Source: Candidatus Faecousia faecigallinarum (GTDB taxonomy: Bacteria; Bacillota; Clostridia; Oscillospirales; Oscillospiraceae). Taken from it: a stretch of DNA of 40,116 nt. The DNA lies in NCBI GenBank assembly GCA_018712145.1, contig DVHJ01000026.1, positions 1 to 40,116 of the forward strand, in the 5' to 3' direction. Position numbers and translations under genes: made by a program. Below are positions 5,909-18,433 of the stretch, piece after piece; positions within the stretch are counted from its first letter, which is position 1; each line of letters begins with the position of its first letter. The notes beneath the pieces were generated by a model. That model saw nothing but the letters and a program-made list of their open reading frames with translations. It was not told the DNA's origin and did no database searches.

Positions 5909-5936
5909 ATCATACCACACGGCGGCACAATGTCAA
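5909..5936 (-). promoter_or_regulatory. promoter of the ACP-MBOAT-SGNH operon
   Basis: On the minus strand TTGACA (5936-5931), 16 nt, TATGAT (5914-5909). The -35 box contains the stop codon of the SIR2-TPR gene, so the acyl-transfer operon can be transcribed independently of it. Confidence 0.65.
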
Positions 5937-7627
5937 GGCATTTTCCCGCCCGGTTCCCCTTTCTTCTGCCGAAGTGCCGTGGCCTTTTTGCCGGCTGCCT
6001 CAGCCTCTCTGTCCCGGCCCAGCCGGCACAGCACAACGGACAGGAAAGTATAGTACGACGGTTCTTCCCCACCGGCATGGATGGCCTTTTGGATCGCCTC
6101 CAGAGCCTCCTGAGCACGGTCCATGGCCAGCAAGAGCATGGCCATTTTGGCATGGGCAACATCCAACGCCGGATCCAGCTCCACCGCCTTGGTATAGGCT
6201 GCCAGCGCCTCCTGGTTTTGTTCCAATTTCGCCAACAAATCTCCTGCCAAGCAATGCAATACTCCCTCCTGGGGATCCAGCGCAATGGCCGCATTGACCT
6301 CCGCCAGCGCTTCCGAAAAACGGTTCATTTTTTGCAGCTGCATCGCCAGATCAGCATGGTATATCGTCTCATCCGGGTCCAGTTCCACCGCTTTTCCATA
6401 GGAAAGCCTGGCTTCTTCATCCTTCCCCAGGGCTTCCAACGCATCCCCCAGCCGGTTATAATACCGGGGATTCTCTGGGTCCTGGCGGATCAACTGGCGA
6501 AGCCATTCTACCGCCCCAGCGGAATCCCCTTGAGAAATGCAGTCGTTGGCCGCCTGATACATCCGTTGGGCCTCTGCCTGGCCGGTGATGTTGGCCAAAG
6601 CCTGACCGATGCCGGCCTGCACCCCCTCCGGCTTGTCCCTGCCGGCTTCCCAGCCGGACTGGCCTTCTTCCCCTTTGTCTCTCCGCTTGCTGGCGTCAGC
6701 AAAAGCGTCAAAGGCGTCAGCCAGAGCCTGATACCGTTTCTCCGCATCTGCAAGGAACGTTTGCTTGTCCGGCAGCTTGTAGGCAAAGGCATCCCCAAGC
6801 CGGATCATCACCTGGTCAAATCCGTCATGACGGATGCAATAGCCCCGGCTTTCCTCCAGGAATTCCTTCACCCGCCCTTCCAATTGATCCCGGGTGTAAA
6901 GCATCCAGTAGGGGCATTTCCAGACATTTTCCGCAAATTTTTCGCTGTTTTCCAAAAGAAAATCCATAACGCTCCGGTCATTTCCGGCATATCCAATAAA
7001 AACCGGGTGGTAATTTAGAAAAATCTTCTCCAGCGCCCCTTTCCATCTGTCCGGAAGGGTTGCCAGATCTTCGGTTCTACTTCTGGGGTCAAACAGCAAA
7101 TCCCGGTGGATTTTGAGAATGGCCGGCCGCACCGGCTGGGCAGTGACGTGCCCGGCCAGAGACTCATGGCCCACCACCATGGGCATGTGCTGGGCATAGT
7201 ACTGCACCGCATCCTCGGTGAGATGGTCAAAGTTGGTGGTGACCACCACATTGTGGGGAGTGTGGGTCAGTAAGTAAGCCAGGATGACATAGCCCACGCT
7301 GGGTTTCGCCGAATCCATCTGCTTTTCCAAATAGCTGTAGCCGTCGCTGGGCATACGGGCAAACCGCTTTTCATAGTACTGGCTGTAAAAGCTGGACATA
7401 TTTTCGTCGGTGATTCCCAAGCCATCCCGCCAATGCCCATGGGCCTGGGGATTGCGGGTGCGCAGTTCTCTGTCCCAAATACGCACCAGCTCCTGGCCTG
7501 ACGGGATGCCGGAAGAGCGAGAGGCCCCCGCACCCAGCACAAAGCAAAACTTCCGCGGATGGGAGCTGTGGGTCACTTCCTTTATCTCCTGGAGAAATCC
7601 CTCTAGGGACAGCGGTTCATAAGCCAT
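5933..7627 (-). CDS. SIR2-domain protein with C-terminal TPR repeats
   Basis: The 564-residue protein has an N-terminal SIR2-type NAD-binding domain: GAGAS at 32-36 with SSGIPSG after it, TTNFD at 130-134, LKIHRDL at 171-177 with His174 in the catalytic-His position, and FIGYAGNDRSV at 210-220. A charged linker (about 310-345) leads to roughly five TPR repeats (about 350-550), including repeated A-V-E-L-D-P helices. SIR2 domains of this SIR2_2 type are the NADase effectors of several anti-phage systems, with the C-terminal repeats acting as sensor or oligomerisation part. No second defence gene is adjacent, so that role is inference. AGGGAGG lies upstream of the ATG. It is divergent from a MocR-type regulator. 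Confidence 0.85.
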   Translation of the reverse strand: MAYEPLSLEGFLQEIKEVTHSSHPRKFCFVLGAGASRSSGIPSGQELVRIWDRELRTRNPQAHGHWRDGLGITDENMSSFYSQYYEKRFARMPSDGYSYLEKQMDSAKPSVGYVILAYLLTHTPHNVVVTTNFDHLTEDAVQYYAQHMPMVVGHESLAGHVTAQPVRPAILKIHRDLLFDPRSRTEDLATLPDRWKGALEKIFLNYHPVFIGYAGNDRSVMDFLLENSEKFAENVWKCPYWMLYTRDQLEGRVKEFLEESRGYCIRHDGFDQVMIRLGDAFAYKLPDKQTFLADAEKRYQALADAFDAFADASKRRDKGEEGQSGWEAGRDKPEGVQAGIGQALANITGQAEAQRMYQAANDCISQGDSAGAVEWLRQLIRQDPENPRYYNRLGDALEALGKDEEARLSYGKAVELDPDETIYHADLAMQLQKMNRFSEALAEVNAAIALDPQEGVLHCLAGDLLAKLEQNQEALAAYTKAVELDPALDVAHAKMAMLLLAMDRAQEALEAIQKAIHAGGEEPSYYTFLSVVLCRLGRDREAEAAGKKATALRQKKGEPGGKMP

Positions 7628-7652: not shown

Positions 7653-7670
7653 AATTTGACAAAATTTGAC
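7653..7670 (-). promoter_or_regulatory. tandem AATTTGAC repeats at the SIR2-TPR transcription start
   Basis: AATTTGAC occurs at 7653-7660 and 7663-7670, exactly one helical turn apart, around and just after the expected start of transcription. It could be an operator; no matching regulator is identified. Confidence 0.35.
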
Positions 7671-7673
7671 TTT

Positions 7674-7702
7674 ATTGTATAAGCCCGTCACTGGTTTTGC
7701 AA
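7674..7702 (-). promoter_or_regulatory. promoter of the SIR2-TPR gene
   Basis: On the minus strand TTGCAA (7702-7697), 17 nt, TACAAT (7679-7674), about 50 nt upstream of the ATG at 7627. Confidence 0.65.
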
Positions 7703-7777
7703 GGGGTATTTCCGGAAATCTCCCGCCGTTCCCCAGGCATTGGCCACACGCGGCCCAGGGGCGTGCAAAGCCCCCTC

Positions 7778-7806
7778 TTGCCATAAACTGGCATCGGTTG
7801 TATACT
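7778..7806 (+). promoter_or_regulatory. promoter of the MocR-type gene, with internal inverted repeat
   Basis: TTGCCA (7778-7783), 17 nt, TATACT (7801-7806). The inverted repeat TGCCA-TAAAC-TGGCA overlaps the -35 box and spacer, a plausible autoregulatory site. Confidence 0.6.
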
Positions 7807-7827
7807 GAAGGCAGAAAGGAGTCCGCC

Positions 7828-9228
7828 ATGCTGACCTATGACCTGACCCAAGAACCGGGCCCCCTGTATGCGGCCCTGTACCGCTGCATCCGCCGGGATA
7901 TCCTGGCCGGCCGCCTGGCCCCCGGCCAGAAACTGCCCTCCAAACGGGCCCTGGCCGACCACCTAAAAATCAGCAAAGCCACCGTGGAGGCAGCCTATGC
8001 CCAGCTAAACGCCGAGGGCTACCTCCGCTCCCGGGAGAAGGTGGGCTATTTTGTGGAGCAGGTAGCCAGCAGCTCCCTCCCCCAGCTCCCCCGGCCAACG
8101 CCCCGGGAAACGCCGCCCCCGCCCCCGGCGGAGCTGGCGGACTTTACTGCCAACCGGTTAGAGGCCTTCCCCTTCTCCGTGTGGTCCAAGCTCTCCCGGG
8201 AGGTGATGCTGGACTATGGCCGGGATCTGCTGGACCCGGTGCCCTCCGGGGGCGCCCTGGTGCTCCGCCAGGCCATTGCCGGGTTCCTCTATGGCTTTCG
8301 GTCTATGTCCGTCTCTCCCGACCAGATCTTGGTGGGGGCGGGCACGGACTTCCTGTATAACCTGCTGGTGCAGCTTTTGGGCCGGGACAAGGTCTACGGG
8401 GTGGAGGACCCGGGCTACGCCAAAATCCGCCAGATCTACACCGCCGCCGGGGTGGAATGCCTGCCCCTGCCCATGGACGGGGAGGGGGTGCGGCCGGATT
8501 GCCTGGGCCGGGCCCAGGTGGTGCACCTATCCCCATCCCACCACTTTCCCACCGGGGTGGTCACCCCCATTGGCCGCCGCCAGGCTCTGCTGGCCTGGGC
8601 GGAGGGGGCCCCGGGCCGCTATCTCATTGAGGACGACTATGACAGCGAATTCCGGCTGGCCGGCCGGCCCATCCCCACCTTGCAGTCCATCGACCGCAGC
8701 GGAAAGGTGATCTACCTCAACTCCTTTACCAAATCCATCGCCCCGTCCATCCGCATCGGCTTTCTGGTGCTGCCCCCGGGGCTGATGGCGGAATTCCACC
8801 GGAAGCTGGGCTTTTATGCCTGCACCGTTCCCAGCTTTGAGCAGTACACCCTGGCCCGGTTCCTCAGCCGGGGGTACTTTGAGCAGCACCTGAACCGGAT
8901 GAAGAAGCACTACCGCATTCAGCGGGACAAAATTCTCGCCGCCCTGGCCGGGGCCAGCTTTGCCGGGCAGGTGGAGGTGCTGGGCAAGGATGCCGGGCTC
9001 CACTTTCTGCTGCGGGTGGATACCAGCCTCACCGATCGGCAGCTGAAGGCCCTGTGCGCCGGGGCTGGGATCCGCATCCAATGCCTGTCCGAGTTTTATC
9101 AGGCCCCCGCCGGGGACTCCCACTGCCTGGTGGTGAACTACACCGGCTTCCCCGGGGACCGGGCGGAGCAGGTGGCCGCCAACCTGGAGCAGGTGCTGGC
9201 GGGAAAAAAACCGGGCCTTGCCCCTTGA
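7828..9228 (+). CDS. MocR/PdxR-type GntR-family regulator with aminotransferase domain
   Basis: The 466-residue protein has a GntR winged helix-turn-helix at about 10-75 (LPSKRALADHLKISKATVEAAY) followed, after a proline-rich linker, by a fold-type I aminotransferase domain. The PLP-binding lysine lies in SFTKSIAPSIRIGF and the conserved EDDYDSEF precedes it. MocR proteins sense PLP or amino-compound adducts and usually control a divergent neighbour; the best known, PdxR, controls pdxST. Here the divergent gene is the SIR2-TPR gene, not a vitamin B6 gene, so the target is unclear. I chose the ATG at 7828, after AAAGGAG and a promoter; an in-frame ATG at 7666 would lie upstream of the promoter. 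Confidence 0.9.
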   Translation: MLTYDLTQEPGPLYAALYRCIRRDILAGRLAPGQKLPSKRALADHLKISKATVEAAYAQLNAEGYLRSREKVGYFVEQVASSSLPQLPRPTPRETPPPPPAELADFTANRLEAFPFSVWSKLSREVMLDYGRDLLDPVPSGGALVLRQAIAGFLYGFRSMSVSPDQILVGAGTDFLYNLLVQLLGRDKVYGVEDPGYAKIRQIYTAAGVECLPLPMDGEGVRPDCLGRAQVVHLSPSHHFPTGVVTPIGRRQALLAWAEGAPGRYLIEDDYDSEFRLAGRPIPTLQSIDRSGKVIYLNSFTKSIAPSIRIGFLVLPPGLMAEFHRKLGFYACTVPSFEQYTLARFLSRGYFEQHLNRMKKHYRIQRDKILAALAGASFAGQVEVLGKDAGLHFLLRVDTSLTDRQLKALCAGAGIRIQCLSEFYQAPAGDSHCLVVNYTGFPGDRAEQVAANLEQVLAGKKPGLAP

Positions 9229-9252
9229 CTTTTTCCCGCCGGGCCGTATAAT
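9225..9252 (+). promoter_or_regulatory. promoter of the leader and CNNM-type gene
   Basis: TTGACT (9225-9230), 16 nt, TATAAT (9247-9252). It overlaps the stop codon of the MocR-type gene and predicts a transcript starting near 9259, which leaves a leader of about 187 nt before the CNNM-type gene. Confidence 0.75.
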
Positions 9253-9289
9253 AGCGGTAGAAAACATATTGGGAAAGGAATTCACTTCG

Positions 9290-9352
9290 ATGAGCGACTG
9301 CGACAGTACCGGCGACGGTAACGCCGACTGCCCTAGACCTAATCAAGCATAG
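9290..9352 (+). CDS. 20-codon acidic leader peptide (candidate uORF)
   Basis: A short ORF starts 31 nt into the predicted transcript, with AAAGGAA about 8 nt before its ATG. The peptide has Asp at positions 3, 5, 9 and 13, then Cys-Pro-Arg-Pro at 14-17. The segment DSTGDGNAD resembles the first part of a calcium-binding EF-hand or dockerin loop. Its last codons and TAG stop coincide with an RNA segment that can pair downstream (9345-9351 with 9380-9386). Acidic plus proline-rich leader peptides such as MgtL are known to make ribosomes fall off at low Mg2+, and the gene behind this leader is a CNNM/CorC-type protein. Translation is not proven. Confidence 0.45.
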   Translation: MSDCDSTGDGNADCPRPNQA

Positions 9353-9445
9353 CCTGCACCGGTCTTGACGGAAGCGGGTTATGCTTTTGCGCATTTCCTC
9401 CGCTTCCCCCGCCATCGGCCCATGGATTTAGGAGGAACATAAATT
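9353..9445 (+). promoter_or_regulatory. structured leader with alternative pairings and anti-Shine-Dalgarno
   Basis: GGAAGCGG (9370-9377) pairs with CCGCTTCC (9400-9407). AAGCATA (9345-9351) can instead pair with TATGCTT (9380-9386), crossing the first stem as a pseudoknot or rival fold. TTCCTCC (9395-9401) is perfectly complementary to GGAGGAA (9431-9437), the ribosome binding site of the gene at 9446. It does not match the M-box or yybP-ykoY consensus as I know them. Confidence 0.45.
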
Positions 9446-10765
9446 ATGCAAACCATACTCTTGCAGCTGCTGCTTCAGGTTGTGCTGATCGCCCTGAACG
9501 CAGTGTTCGCCTGCGCAGAAATTGCCGTGCTCTCGGTGAACGAGACCCGGCTGGAAAAACTGGCGGAGGATGGCAACCGCAAGGCCGTGCGCCTGCGCCG
9601 CCTCACCAGCCAGCCCGCCAAATTCCTGGCCACCATCCAGGTAGCCATCACCCTGTCGGGCTTCCTGGGCAGCGCCATGGCTGCGGAGAACTTCTCGGAG
9701 TACCTGGTCAACTGGCTGGTTAGTCTGGGCGTAACCATCCCCCGGGGCACCCTGGACGCCATTTCCGTGGTGCTGATCACCATTGTGCTGTCGTACATCA
9801 CCCTGGTGTTCGGCGAGCTGGTGCCCAAGCGGCTGGCCATGAAAAAGTCGGAGGCCCTGGCTCTGGGCATGTCCGGCATGATCTCCGGCATTTCCAAGAT
9901 TTTTGCCCCGCTGGTGTGGCTGCTCACCGTGTCGGTGAACGGCGTGCTGCGGCTGCTGGGGGTTGATCCCAACGCCGAGGAAGAACAGGTCAGCGAGGAA
10001 GAGATCCGGATGATGGTGGATGCCGGCGGCGAGCACGGCACCATCGACCGGGAAGAGCAGCACTTTATTCAAAACGTCTTTGAGTTCGACGACTTGACCG
10101 CCGGGGAAATTTCCACCCACCGCACGGAGATTGCCATGCTCTGGATGGACGAAACCCCGGAGCAGTGGGCGGAAACCATCCGCACCAGCCGGCATTCCAT
10201 GTACCCGGTTTGCCAGGAGTCGGTGGATCAGGTCATCGGCGTGCTGAACACCAAGGATTACTTCCGCCTGGCGGATCACAGCCGGGAGACCATCCTGGCC
10301 CAGGCGGTAAAGCCTGCCTACTTTGTCCCAGAGTCGGTGAAGGCCGACGTGCTGTTCCGGAATATGCGGAACCGGCGGATCCACTTTGCCGTGGTACTGG
10401 ACGAGTACGGCGGCCTCAGCGGCATTATCACCATCTATGACCTGCTGGAGCAGCTGGTGGGGGACTTTGATGATGAGTCTGTGGGCGAGGCGCCGGAAAT
10501 TGAGCAGGTAGATACCCGCACCTGGCGGATTCAGGGTTCCGCCCCCCTGGATGACGTGGCCGAACAGCTGGGGATGGAGATGCCGGTGGAGGAGTATGAC
10601 ACCTTTGGCGGCCTGGTGTTTGGCGCCTTGGGCGCCATTCCCGCCGACGGCGCTCAGCCGGAGCTGGACGTGTGCGGCGTACATGTGAAAGTGCAGAGCA
10701 TTTTAGAGCACCGCCTGCAAAGCGCGTTGGTCATCACCCCGGAGCCGGCAGAGGCGGAAGCTTAA
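9446..10765 (+). CDS. CNNM/CorC-type (HlyC) membrane protein with CBS pair
   Basis: The 439-residue protein has the layout DUF21/CNNM transmembrane domain (about 1-190, four hydrophobic segments), a tandem CBS pair (about 205-330, including the typical VVLDEYGGLSGIIT) and a C-terminal CorC_HlyC domain (about 345-430, ending in LVFGALGAIP). Family members are often labelled hemolysins but the characterised ones move or regulate Mg2+ or other divalent cations across the membrane, with the CBS domains sensing Mg-ATP. Here a long leader with an acidic uORF precedes it, which fits cation-responsive control. AGGAGG lies 11 nt before the ATG. It is followed by hairpins and no co-transcribed gene. 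Confidence 0.9.
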   Translation: MQTILLQLLLQVVLIALNAVFACAEIAVLSVNETRLEKLAEDGNRKAVRLRRLTSQPAKFLATIQVAITLSGFLGSAMAAENFSEYLVNWLVSLGVTIPRGTLDAISVVLITIVLSYITLVFGELVPKRLAMKKSEALALGMSGMISGISKIFAPLVWLLTVSVNGVLRLLGVDPNAEEEQVSEEEIRMMVDAGGEHGTIDREEQHFIQNVFEFDDLTAGEISTHRTEIAMLWMDETPEQWAETIRTSRHSMYPVCQESVDQVIGVLNTKDYFRLADHSRETILAQAVKPAYFVPESVKADVLFRNMRNRRIHFAVVLDEYGGLSGIITIYDLLEQLVGDFDDESVGEAPEIEQVDTRTWRIQGSAPLDDVAEQLGMEMPVEEYDTFGGLVFGALGAIPADGAQPELDVCGVHVKVQSILEHRLQSALVITPEPAEAEA

Positions 10766-11078: not shown

Positions 11079-11106
11079 TTGACTTTTTTCGGAAATGGTA
11101 TATAGT
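11079..11106 (+). promoter_or_regulatory. clpB promoter
   Basis: TTGACT (11079-11084), 16 nt, TATAGT (11101-11106), directly followed by the CIRCE operator. Confidence 0.7.
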
Positions 11107-11119
11107 GAAAGCAAAAGAG

Positions 11120-11146
11120 TTAGCACTCTCAAGCAGGGAGTGCTAA
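11120..11146 (+). promoter_or_regulatory. CIRCE operator (HrcA binding site)
   Basis: TTAGCACTC-N9-GAGTGCTAA is a perfect match to the CIRCE consensus, located at the predicted transcription start of clpB. HrcA normally represses from such sites until heat stress. Neither hrcA nor groESL is in the window. Confidence 0.95.
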
Positions 11147-11178
11147 ACCGCCCCGGTGGGCGGGAAAGGAGAGCGCTT

Positions 11179-13422
11179 ATGAACTTTAATCAATATACCA
11201 GGAAGTCTCTGGAAGCCATCCAGAGCGCCCAGAACATCGCCCGGGAAAACGGCCACCAGCAAATGGAGCAGGTGCACCTGCTGCTGGCCCTGCTGCGCCA
11301 GGAAAACGGCCTGGCCCCCCAGCTTCTGCGGAAAATGGGGGTCACCGTGGAAAGCCTGGAGGCGGCGGCAGAAGTGGAGCTGGGAAAACTGCCCCGGGTG
11401 TCCGGCAGCCGGGAGGCAGATAAATTCTATATTTCCCAAGGGGTGGACGACGTATTTACCCAAGCCGAAAGCCTGGCCGCCAGCATGAAAGATGAATACG
11501 TCTCCGTGGAGCACCTGCTCCTGGCCCTGGTGGAATCCGCCCGGGATCCGGTCAAATCCCTGCTGCGCACCTACAATATCCGCAAAGAAGACTGCATGCA
11601 GGCCCTGCAGGCCGTCCGGGGCAGCCAGCGGGTCACCTCCGACAACCCGGAGGAGACCTACGAGGCCCTGGAAAAATACGGCACCGACCTGGTACGCCAG
11701 GCCAAAGCCCAGAAGATGGACCCAGTGATCGGCCGGGACGAAGAAATTCGGAATGTCATCCGCATCCTCAGCCGGAAAACAAAAAACAACCCGGTGCTCA
11801 TCGGTGAGCCGGGCGTGGGCAAAACCGCCATTGCCGAAGGGCTGGCCCAGCGGATTGTCCGGGGAGACGTCCCTAAGAATTTGCAGGAGAAAACCATTTT
11901 CTCCCTGGATATGGGCTCCCTCATTGCCGGGGCAAAATACCGGGGCGAATTTGAAGAGCGGCTGAAGGCTGTGCTGGCGGAGGTGAAGAAGTCCGAGGGC
12001 AGGATCATCCTGTTCATCGACGAGCTGCACACCATTGTGGGCGCCGGGAAAACCGACGGCGCCATGGACGCCGGCAACCTGTTAAAGCCTATGCTGGCCC
12101 GGGGCGAGCTCCACTGCATCGGCGCCACTACCCTGGATGAGTACCGCCAGTATGTGGAGAAGGACCCGGCCCTGGAGCGCCGGTTCCAGCCGGTGATGGT
12201 GAATGAGCCCACGGTAGAAGATACCATTGCCATCCTCCGGGGCCTGAAAGAACGGTACGAGGTTTATCACGGGGTGAAGATCACCGACGCGGCCATTATC
12301 GCCGCCGCCTCCCTGTCCAACCGGTACATTTCCGACCGGTTCCTGCCGGACAAGGCCATCGACCTGATTGACGAGGCCTGCGCCCTGATCCGCACGGAGA
12401 TGGACTCCATGCCCACCGAACTGGACGTGGTCTCCCGGAAAATTATCCAAATGGAAATTGAGGAGGCTGCCCTGAAGAAGGAGGAGGATCCCCGCTCCAA
12501 GGCCCGGCTGGCCGAGCTGCAAAAAGAGCTGGCGGAAGAACGGGAGCAGCTGAACGCCAAAAAGGCCCAGTGGGAAAATGAGAAAAATGCCATTGGCCGG
12601 GTGCAGCAGCTCCGGGAACAGATTGAAGATCTGAACCGGCAAATTGAAGCGGCGGAGCAGCAATACGACCTGGAGAAAGCCGCCGAGCTGAAATACGGCA
12701 AGCTCCCGGAGGCCAAACGCCAGCTGGAAGCCGAGGAGCAGGTGGCCCAAAACGCCAAGGCCACCAGCATGCTCCGGGACAAGGTGACGGAAGAGGAGAT
12801 TGCCCGGATTGTCCAGCGGTGGACGGGAATCCCCGTATCCAAGCTGGTCCAGGGCGAGCGGGAGAAACTACTGCACCTGGATGAAACCCTCCACCGCCGG
12901 GTGGTGGGCCAAGATGAAGCCGTGCAGGCGGTGACGGAAGCCATCCAGCGCAGCCGGGCAGGCATCCAGGACCCGAACCGGCCCATCGGCTCGTTTTTGT
13001 TCCTTGGCCCCACCGGCGTGGGCAAAACCGAGCTGGCCAAAAGCCTGGCCGAGGCGCTGTTTGACGATGAAAACAACCTGGTGCGGATTGACATGTCGGA
13101 ATATATGGAGAAATTCGCCGTGTCCCGGCTGATCGGGGCGCCTCCCGGATACGTGGGCTATGAGGAAGGCGGCCAGCTCACCGAGGCGGTCCGCCGGAAG
13201 CCCTACTCCGTGGTGCTGTTTGACGAGGTGGAAAAGGCCCATCCGGATGTGTTCAACGTGCTGCTGCAGGTGCTGGACGACGGCCGGATTACCGATTCCC
13301 AAGGCCGGACGGTGGACTTTAAAAACACATCATCATCCTCACCTCCAATCTGGGCTCCGCCTACCTGCTGGACGGCATCGGCCCGGACGGCTCCATTGCC
13401 GAGTCCGCCCGCAGCCAAGTGA
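11179..13422 (+). CDS. clpB: ClpB disaggregase, 5' portion up to a frameshift
   Basis: ClpB is the hexameric AAA+ disaggregase that works with DnaK on heat-denatured proteins. This part holds the N domain (about 1-145), the first AAA module with Walker [14 protein letters not shown] and [10 protein letters not shown], the coiled-coil M domain (about 400-525), and the second AAA module with Walker [14 protein letters not shown] and Walker [13 protein letters not shown]. After codon 716 (VDFKNT) the frame changes: the expected Ile-Ile-Ile-Leu-Thr-Ser continues in the next frame from 13329, so one base is missing near 13328. Read as given, the protein ends with about 32 unrelated residues. The ATG at 11179 follows GGAAAGGAG and CIRCE; the upstream in-frame ATG at 11095 lies in the promoter. 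Confidence 0.9.
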
Positions 13423-13769
13423 TGGCGCTGTTGCGTAAGTCCTTCCGGCCGGAGTTCCTGAACCGGTTGGATGAGATCGTCTTCTACAAGCCCCTGAGCA
13501 AAGCCGATGTCACCGCCATCATTGACCTGCAAATTGACCGGCTGAACCGCCGCCTGGCGGAGCAGGAGATCACCTGCGCCCTGACCCCGGAGGCCAAACA
13601 CTTTATCATTGACGCAGCCTACGATCCCCAGTACGGCGCCCGTCCTCTGCGCCGGTATGTCCAGCACACGGTGGAAACCCTGCTGGCCAAGCGCCTGCTG
13701 GCGGGAGACATTCTCCCCGGACAGACCGTCACCGTGGATGTCCAGGAGGGTCAGCTGGTATTGCAGTAA
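13329..13769 (+). CDS. clpB: ClpB disaggregase, 3' portion after the frameshift
   Basis: From 13329 the second frame reads the rest of the second AAA module and the C-terminal domain: [11 protein letters not shown], the [15 protein letters not shown] sensor and arginine-finger region, then [13 protein letters not shown] and a normal C-terminus. Joined to the first part with one added base, the protein would be 863 residues, the normal ClpB length. No start codon with a ribosome binding site opens this segment, so on its own it would not be made. Either the strain has lost ClpB or the base is missing through sequencing error. Confidence 0.8.
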
Positions 13770-18261: not shown

Positions 18262-18289
18262 TTGACAAATCCCCAGGGGTTGGTATAAT
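18262..18289 (+). promoter_or_regulatory. rplJ-rplL promoter
   Basis: TTGACA (18262-18267), 16 nt, TATAAT (18284-18289): perfect consensus boxes, as expected for a ribosomal-protein operon. Confidence 0.85.
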
Positions 18290-18292
18290 AGA

Positions 18293-18420
18293 CAAGCTGC
18301 CAGAGACAGCAGGAGGCACTTTGCCGTAACGGGATTTCCCATCCTGCCGAGGTGTGCGAAATTCGCTATGCTGTGTTTCGTGTCCTCATGTCTTTTGGCA
18401 TGAGGCATTTATTTTTTCGG
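18293..18420 (+). ncRNA. L10 leader (ribosomal protein autoregulatory RNA)
   Basis: The leader between the promoter and rplJ contains CCTGCCGAGGTGTG, which I recognise from Firmicutes L10 leaders, after AGGAGGCACTTTGCCG. It ends with a terminator-type hairpin, CCTCATG (18384-18390) with CATGAGG (18399-18405), followed by a T-rich run. L10 or the L10-L12 complex binds such leaders to repress the operon. Confidence 0.8.
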
Positions 18421-18433
18421 AGGTGACACTTTC

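Follow-up and report, generated by a model that had tools for sequence, protein, structure and literature searches.

The window, by which we mean the whole stretch of 40,116 nucleotides analysed from Candidatus Faecousia faecigallinarum, carries on its plus strand a gene at 9446-10765 whose 439-aa product has CNNM, CBS and CorC_HlyC domains, each above cut-off, as an earlier note's designation of a CNNM-type transporter gene had anticipated. The best structural relatives of this protein are the CorB-type 'hemolysin, contains CBS domains' (7m1t/7m1u) and Mg2+/Co2+ efflux CorC structures. By analogy with its CNNM/CorB homologues, which are Mg2+ efflux proteins (PMC12421838), the product is probably a CorB/PaeA-like cation transporter that acts in efflux. 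Its ion is uncertain, because PaeA, a polyamine exporter, is a relative (the best NCBIfam match, below cut-off) and CNNM proteins can also export polyamines. This is the only CNNM gene in the genome, which has one mgtE gene and no corA, so that no second importer leader is available there for comparison.

Several other features of the window are of separate interest. Directly upstream of the CNNM leader, 7666-9228 encodes a protein of MocR/PdxR type that joins a GntR DNA-binding domain to an aminotransferase class I/II domain. On the minus strand, 5933-7627 encodes a SIR2-like domain followed by TPR repeats; the SIR2 part matches the short-Argonaute-associated SIR2 and PDC-S65 models of PADLOC, and the product may be a defence protein. 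A ClpB-type gene at 11095-13769 is interrupted near 13330-13420 by a shift of frame: the first ORF goes out of frame within the second AAA domain, and the D2-small domain is encoded in a different frame. This reflects either a real lesion or an assembly error. A Ribosomal protein L10 leader (RF00557) lies at 18282-18421.

Anatomy of the CNNM leader

The leader, on the plus strand throughout, follows a strong sigma-70-type promoter, TTGACT-16-TATAAT at 9225-9252, which matches 11 of 12 consensus positions and from which transcription would start at about 9259. A Shine-Dalgarno (SD) sequence, AAAGGA (9274-9279; scored SD5), stands 10 nt before the ATG of a 20-codon upstream ORF (uORF) at 9290-9352, MSDCDSTGDGNADCPRPNQA, whose stop codon TAG occupies 9350-9352. 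The peptide is acidic and contains Ser, Gly and Pro, with Asp at residues 3, 5, 9 and 13 and Pro at 15 and 17; the earlier note's description of both promoter and uORF is borne out. Codons 2-17 (9293-9340) form a candidate ribosome-destabilising segment, proposed from likeness to the MgtL leader peptide and to early acidic repeats (PMC11282234), together with the composition of the 85 uORFs considered below. The uORF runs into an intrinsic terminator hairpin, AAGCATAGCC...GGGTTATGCTT at 9345-9386, which belongs to the minimum-energy structure, has a folding energy of -23.4 kcal/mol and a 10-pair stem (9345-9354/9377-9386), and ends in TTTT (T run 9385-9388). The stop codon lies inside the 5' arm, 8 nt into the hairpin. 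The U-tract of the window is short (TTTTGCGC, with TTTT only), and the whole leader folds only modestly better than shuffles (z -1.9). The SD sequence of the CNNM gene is AGGAGGAA (9430-9437).

A different account of this RNA had been given in the earlier note, which saw rival folds in the pairing of AAGCATA (9345-9351) with TATGCTT (9380-9386) and in an 8-bp stem between GGAAGCGG (9370-9377) and CCGCTTCC (9400-9407), and an anti-SD in TTCCTCC (9395-9401), which is the complement of GGAGGAA (9431-9437), part of the ribosome binding site of the CNNM gene. All of these complementarities are present and exact in this genome. The first pairing is the outer part of the 10-pair terminator stem in the minimum-energy structure and no free-standing rival fold. 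The 8-bp stem and the anti-SD (together 9370-9407) lie downstream of the termination point, and because the stem requires RNA from beyond the U-tract, it comes too late to compete with the terminator while termination is being decided. Nor is the anti-SD conserved: 3 of 85 leaders have an anti-SD-like motif in the stretch from the terminator to the ribosome binding site. Thus, despite the exact matches seen here, a switch in which rival folds around the anti-SD govern translation of the CNNM gene strikes us as extremely improbable.

Rfam covariance models, including M-box and yybP-ykoY, did not match the window leader even when E values of up to 10 were allowed, so that the Rfam scan suggested in the earlier note assigns no known riboswitch to it. 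The CNNM leaders of relatives are likewise without any Rfam match.

The uORF and the terminator among relatives

A nucleotide search with the leader across 300 genomes of the family returned only short, chance-like matches. The leader is too diverged for such a search, and the leaders of relatives were therefore gathered through the CNNM protein. Before these homologues we find SD-led uORFs with an acidic start, such as MDSTPDGC, MSDDADC, MDAGDSTPDPER and MDDGDSNPDNPP, and further acidic variants that include VDDSPSSVPRR, MDDSPLPER, VDDSSGPEPGPG, VSDPADPDPAT and others. By looser criteria, a uORF with an acidic N-terminus stands at 77 of 104 full-length CNNM loci, the remaining 27 having no detected acidic uORF, and at all nine of the CNNM genes found in the same genus (L086-L092, L099, L168). 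Under a strict criterion, an SD-led uORF with at least three Asp or Glu in residues 2-9, the trait is found in 47 of 174 CNNM leaders compared with about 1% of control genes, which were drawn from 40 contigs, the window and locus flanks. The same criterion picks out 4 of 415 genes in the organism's own genome, one of them the CNNM gene of the window, and 3 of 171 neighbouring genes, one of which is again a CNNM gene. The uORF trait is clustered on the gene tree, with several gains or losses. In 70 of 78 related leaders (10 of 78 when shuffled), a promoter that matches at least 9 of the 12 consensus positions lies no more than 105 nt upstream of the uORF.

In composition, 74 of 85 uORFs, a set preselected for at least two acidic residues, have an acidic pair or an Asp/Glu-Pro-like motif within the first 12 residues. 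Many are mildly acidic compared with the best-studied destabilising sequences, MDSTPDGC having two Asp. The calcium-binding loop that the earlier note saw in DSTGDGNAD does not extend to the relatives, which keep its acidic, Ser and Gly character only.

The terminator is conserved as well. In an alignment of 25 leaders, 95.9% of the cells of the terminator helix are paired, seven of the 10 pairs have changes on both sides, and the covariation score was reached by no shuffle. Terminator-like hairpins occur in 39 of 80 CNNM leaders and in 13 of 110 control upstream regions. The comparison of homologous leaders proposed in the earlier note thus gave a conserved uORF and a covarying terminator stem, and not the outcome that would have counted against it, close homologues with no conserved uORF or pairing. 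Judged by these sequences, the leader belongs to an element that is widespread in the Clostridia.

The relation between the two parts was examined in 85 non-redundant leaders that have both uORF and terminator, chosen for at least two acidic residues in the uORF. The uORF frame is open up to the terminator in 80 of these, compared with 45 and 54 for the other two frames, and stops number 6 in 779 codons of the uORF frame against 108 in 1461 codons of the others (Fisher p about 3e-14, a value that counts related sequences as independent). In 83 of the 85 the stop codon lies at most 14 nt before the hairpin, or inside or beyond it. Because uORFs end at the hairpin foot in some leaders and extend past the entire terminator in others, no single fixed geometry is conserved. 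What the comparison of leaders does establish, at the level of sequence, is a conserved uORF, a conserved terminator and their overlap.

In several lineages (loci L112, L115, L131, L141, L144 and L207, and also L055-L069), the uORF is open through the whole terminator including the U-tract, with peptides that end, for example, in ..LLCVFLLL and a stop codon some 60-75 nt past the point where the hairpin begins.

Two groups of uORFs show an excess of differences at third codon positions (30/35/93 and 22/32/67 for positions 1/2/3); in the other groups the excess is not clear. These counts, together with the openness of the frame, bear on whether the element might instead be a structured RNA, such as a new riboswitch, whose conserved nucleotides merely resemble a uORF. 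GACAGT and CGA do recur, one group has a small hairpin, and the mgtE leader described below has strong long-range pairing, all of which such an RNA would explain. It would not account for the coding signature, and the terminator dominates the consensus folds of the CNNM leader groups; with the absence of Rfam matches, this makes a structured RNA sensor very improbable.

Probable ribosome control of the terminator

The position of the window's uORF could, on geometry, let the location of a ribosome block or free the terminator. In E. coli, a stop codon placed a few bp upstream of an intrinsic terminator represses it almost fully, termination becomes maximal once the stop lies more than about 27 nt away, and the repression is lost on uncoupling of translation (PMC4824070). 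By analogy, the spacing in the window falls within the zone that is repressed in E. coli. We found no conserved upstream antiterminator in the CNNM leaders: the upstream region pairs with the 5' arm no better than shuffled sequences do (mean z +0.25, window +2.0), which suggests that the ribosome, rather than another RNA segment, is the natural antiterminator.

We therefore consider it reasonably probable that the leader is a ribosome-controlled transcription attenuator that would turn the probable exporter on when Mg2+ is plentiful. RNA polymerase would initiate near 9259 and a ribosome would load on the uORF. On completing it, the ribosome would sit at the stop codon on the 5' arm of the terminator (9345-9354); with this arm occupied no hairpin would form and the CNNM gene would be transcribed. 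A ribosome that drops off or lags on the early Asp/Pro/Ser-rich codons would leave the arm free, allowing termination and switching the gene off. We infer the blocking of the hairpin by the ribosome, the destabilisation by the peptide, the Mg2+ or polyamine signal and the polarity largely from known systems. Early acidic residues destabilise ribosomes, and MgtL senses low Mg2+ by drop-off at EPDP (PMC11282234); Asp-Pro and poly-Asp motifs are hard to translate in the Gram-positive B. subtilis (PMC11381351); and control by destabilisation has been suggested to raise CorC at high Mg2+ (PMC12421838). Low Mg2+, or low polyamine, may thus cause drop-off in an MgtL-like manner, and since drop-off at low Mg2+ would let the terminator form, efflux would be on at plentiful Mg2+.

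MgtL, the leader peptide of mgtA in E. coli and Salmonella, is the nearest counterpart, being likewise a short, early acidic and Pro-containing uORF before a Mg2+ transporter gene. Variants such as VDDSPSSVPRR, MDDSPLPER and VSDPADPDPAT look like its published destabilising EPDP motif, and MDAGDSTPDPER also resembles MgtL; the likeness is one of motif, and sequence homology is not part of it. The two differ in the terminator, which is Rho-dependent for MgtL and intrinsic rather than Rho-type for the CNNM leader, and in the effect of drop-off, by which MgtL switches on an importer while the CNNM leader should switch off a probable exporter, a predicted polarity opposite to that of MgtL. With the MgtL precedent (PMC11282234) and the resemblance between the uORFs in mind, one might instead expect drop-off or stalling to turn the CNNM gene on through an alternative RNA fold, as in mgtA. 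This we think quite unlikely: the upstream pairing that such a fold would need does not exceed the shuffled level, the homologues of CNNM function in efflux, and because the uORF runs into the terminator an absent ribosome favours the hairpin. The earlier note's central idea, that ribosome progress on the uORF sets the outcome, is very plausibly right, although the step controlled is most likely transcription termination and not translation of the main gene. Its MgtL logic appears inverted, in that completing the uORF should turn the gene on.

The signal itself is open to another reading, in which anatomy and polarity are the same and the leader responds to general translation status (amino-acid supply, EF-P/ABCF state or antibiotics) in place of Mg2+. 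Whatever slows the ribosome should increase termination (PMC4824070), and the difficulty of Asp-Pro and poly-Asp motifs in B. subtilis (PMC11381351) would fit such a sensor. The element nevertheless accompanies the gene of a cation transporter, a related leader accompanies mgtE, and the residue mix of the uORFs (Asp, Ser, Pro, Ala, Gly) fits no single amino acid. For these reasons we give general translation status a small but real chance, and prefer attenuation in response to Mg2+.

Other systems share parts of the proposed attenuator. The E. coli pyrBI leader senses UTP through RNA polymerase pausing, whereas here the ribosome itself is the proposed sensor. The pyrBI leader ORF also reaches an intrinsic terminator, whose hairpin is prevented by a close-following ribosome (PMC4824070). 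The bmrCD leader of Bacillus subtilis is reported as a Gram-positive case in which the ribosome on a leader ORF attenuates transcription ahead of a transporter, but it is antibiotic-responsive and controls a drug ABC transporter (PMC4191407). In Enterobacteriaceae, the N-terminal IRD of CorC (YbeX) and YoaL-mgpA resemble the CNNM leader in that a Mg2+-efflux-related protein is suggested to rise at high Mg2+ through ribosome destabilisation or translation of a leader (PMC12421838); the IRD lies within the corC coding region, YoaL overlaps mgpA, and in neither case does a uORF with a terminator attenuate a CNNM gene. The M-box (ykoK, RF00380) is a cis-regulator of Mg2+ transporter genes, including some mgtE genes of the family, but is a protein-free RNA sensor without a uORF and is absent from the window.

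The mgtE leader and a possible Mg2+ regulon in Clostridia

The mgtE gene of the same genome also has an SD-led uORF, MDAGSNGTPVGRSSLAVCRLWRIRL, at about 3000-2923 on the minus strand (L251, G000:C13). A uORF with Asp or Glu as second residue precedes mgtE in 29 of 50 leaders of the family, typically as MDAGSSNGT..GRS, and this leader (family loci L253-L301) is not in Rfam. Its 'MDAGS' group has a third-position count of 0/0/104, which we do not take as proof because the group was defined by that peptide and the count is circular. The uORF codons pair strongly with the region after the stop (mean z -2.3; 18 of 28 below -2), whereas the CNNM leader has no such pairing. An M-box riboswitch was found at 5 of 20 scanned mgtE loci; no uORF was detected at four of these, and the fifth (L256) has both, a pattern that is suggestive, and not statistically secure, of M-box and uORF as alternatives at mgtE loci of the family.

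It is tempting to connect the two leaders. Many Clostridia may have a translation-based Mg2+ (or Mg2+/polyamine) regulon, in which leader peptides that sense ribosome stability control the CNNM exporter by terminator blocking and the mgtE importer or channel by a related uORF leader that replaces the M-box in places. We put this forward as a tentative possibility, somewhat short of an even chance. If this reading is true, the ribosome itself would sense Mg2+, and export and import would respond in opposite ways.

Leader-peptide attenuation and ribosome destabilisation by acidic peptides are known ingredients, and enterobacteria are documented to sense Mg2+ by destabilisation. To the extent that this could be checked, what is new is how these ingredients are combined and wired, the host group and the target. 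The open-access literature yielded no account of a uORF attenuator acting on CNNM or mgtE genes in bacteria, which, with the lack of an Rfam match, agrees with the earlier note's remark that it knew of no described leader of this form.

The leader offers a possible means of control for CNNM exporters and draws attention to an mgtE leader that had gone unrecognised, and its relatives offer dozens of natural variant peptides for defining the features that destabilise ribosomes. If the proposed mechanism is true, ribosome-based sensing of Mg2+ would be in independent and widespread use among Gram-positive gut bacteria, where it would be tied to an intrinsic terminator and, by its geometry, give the opposite output for efflux.
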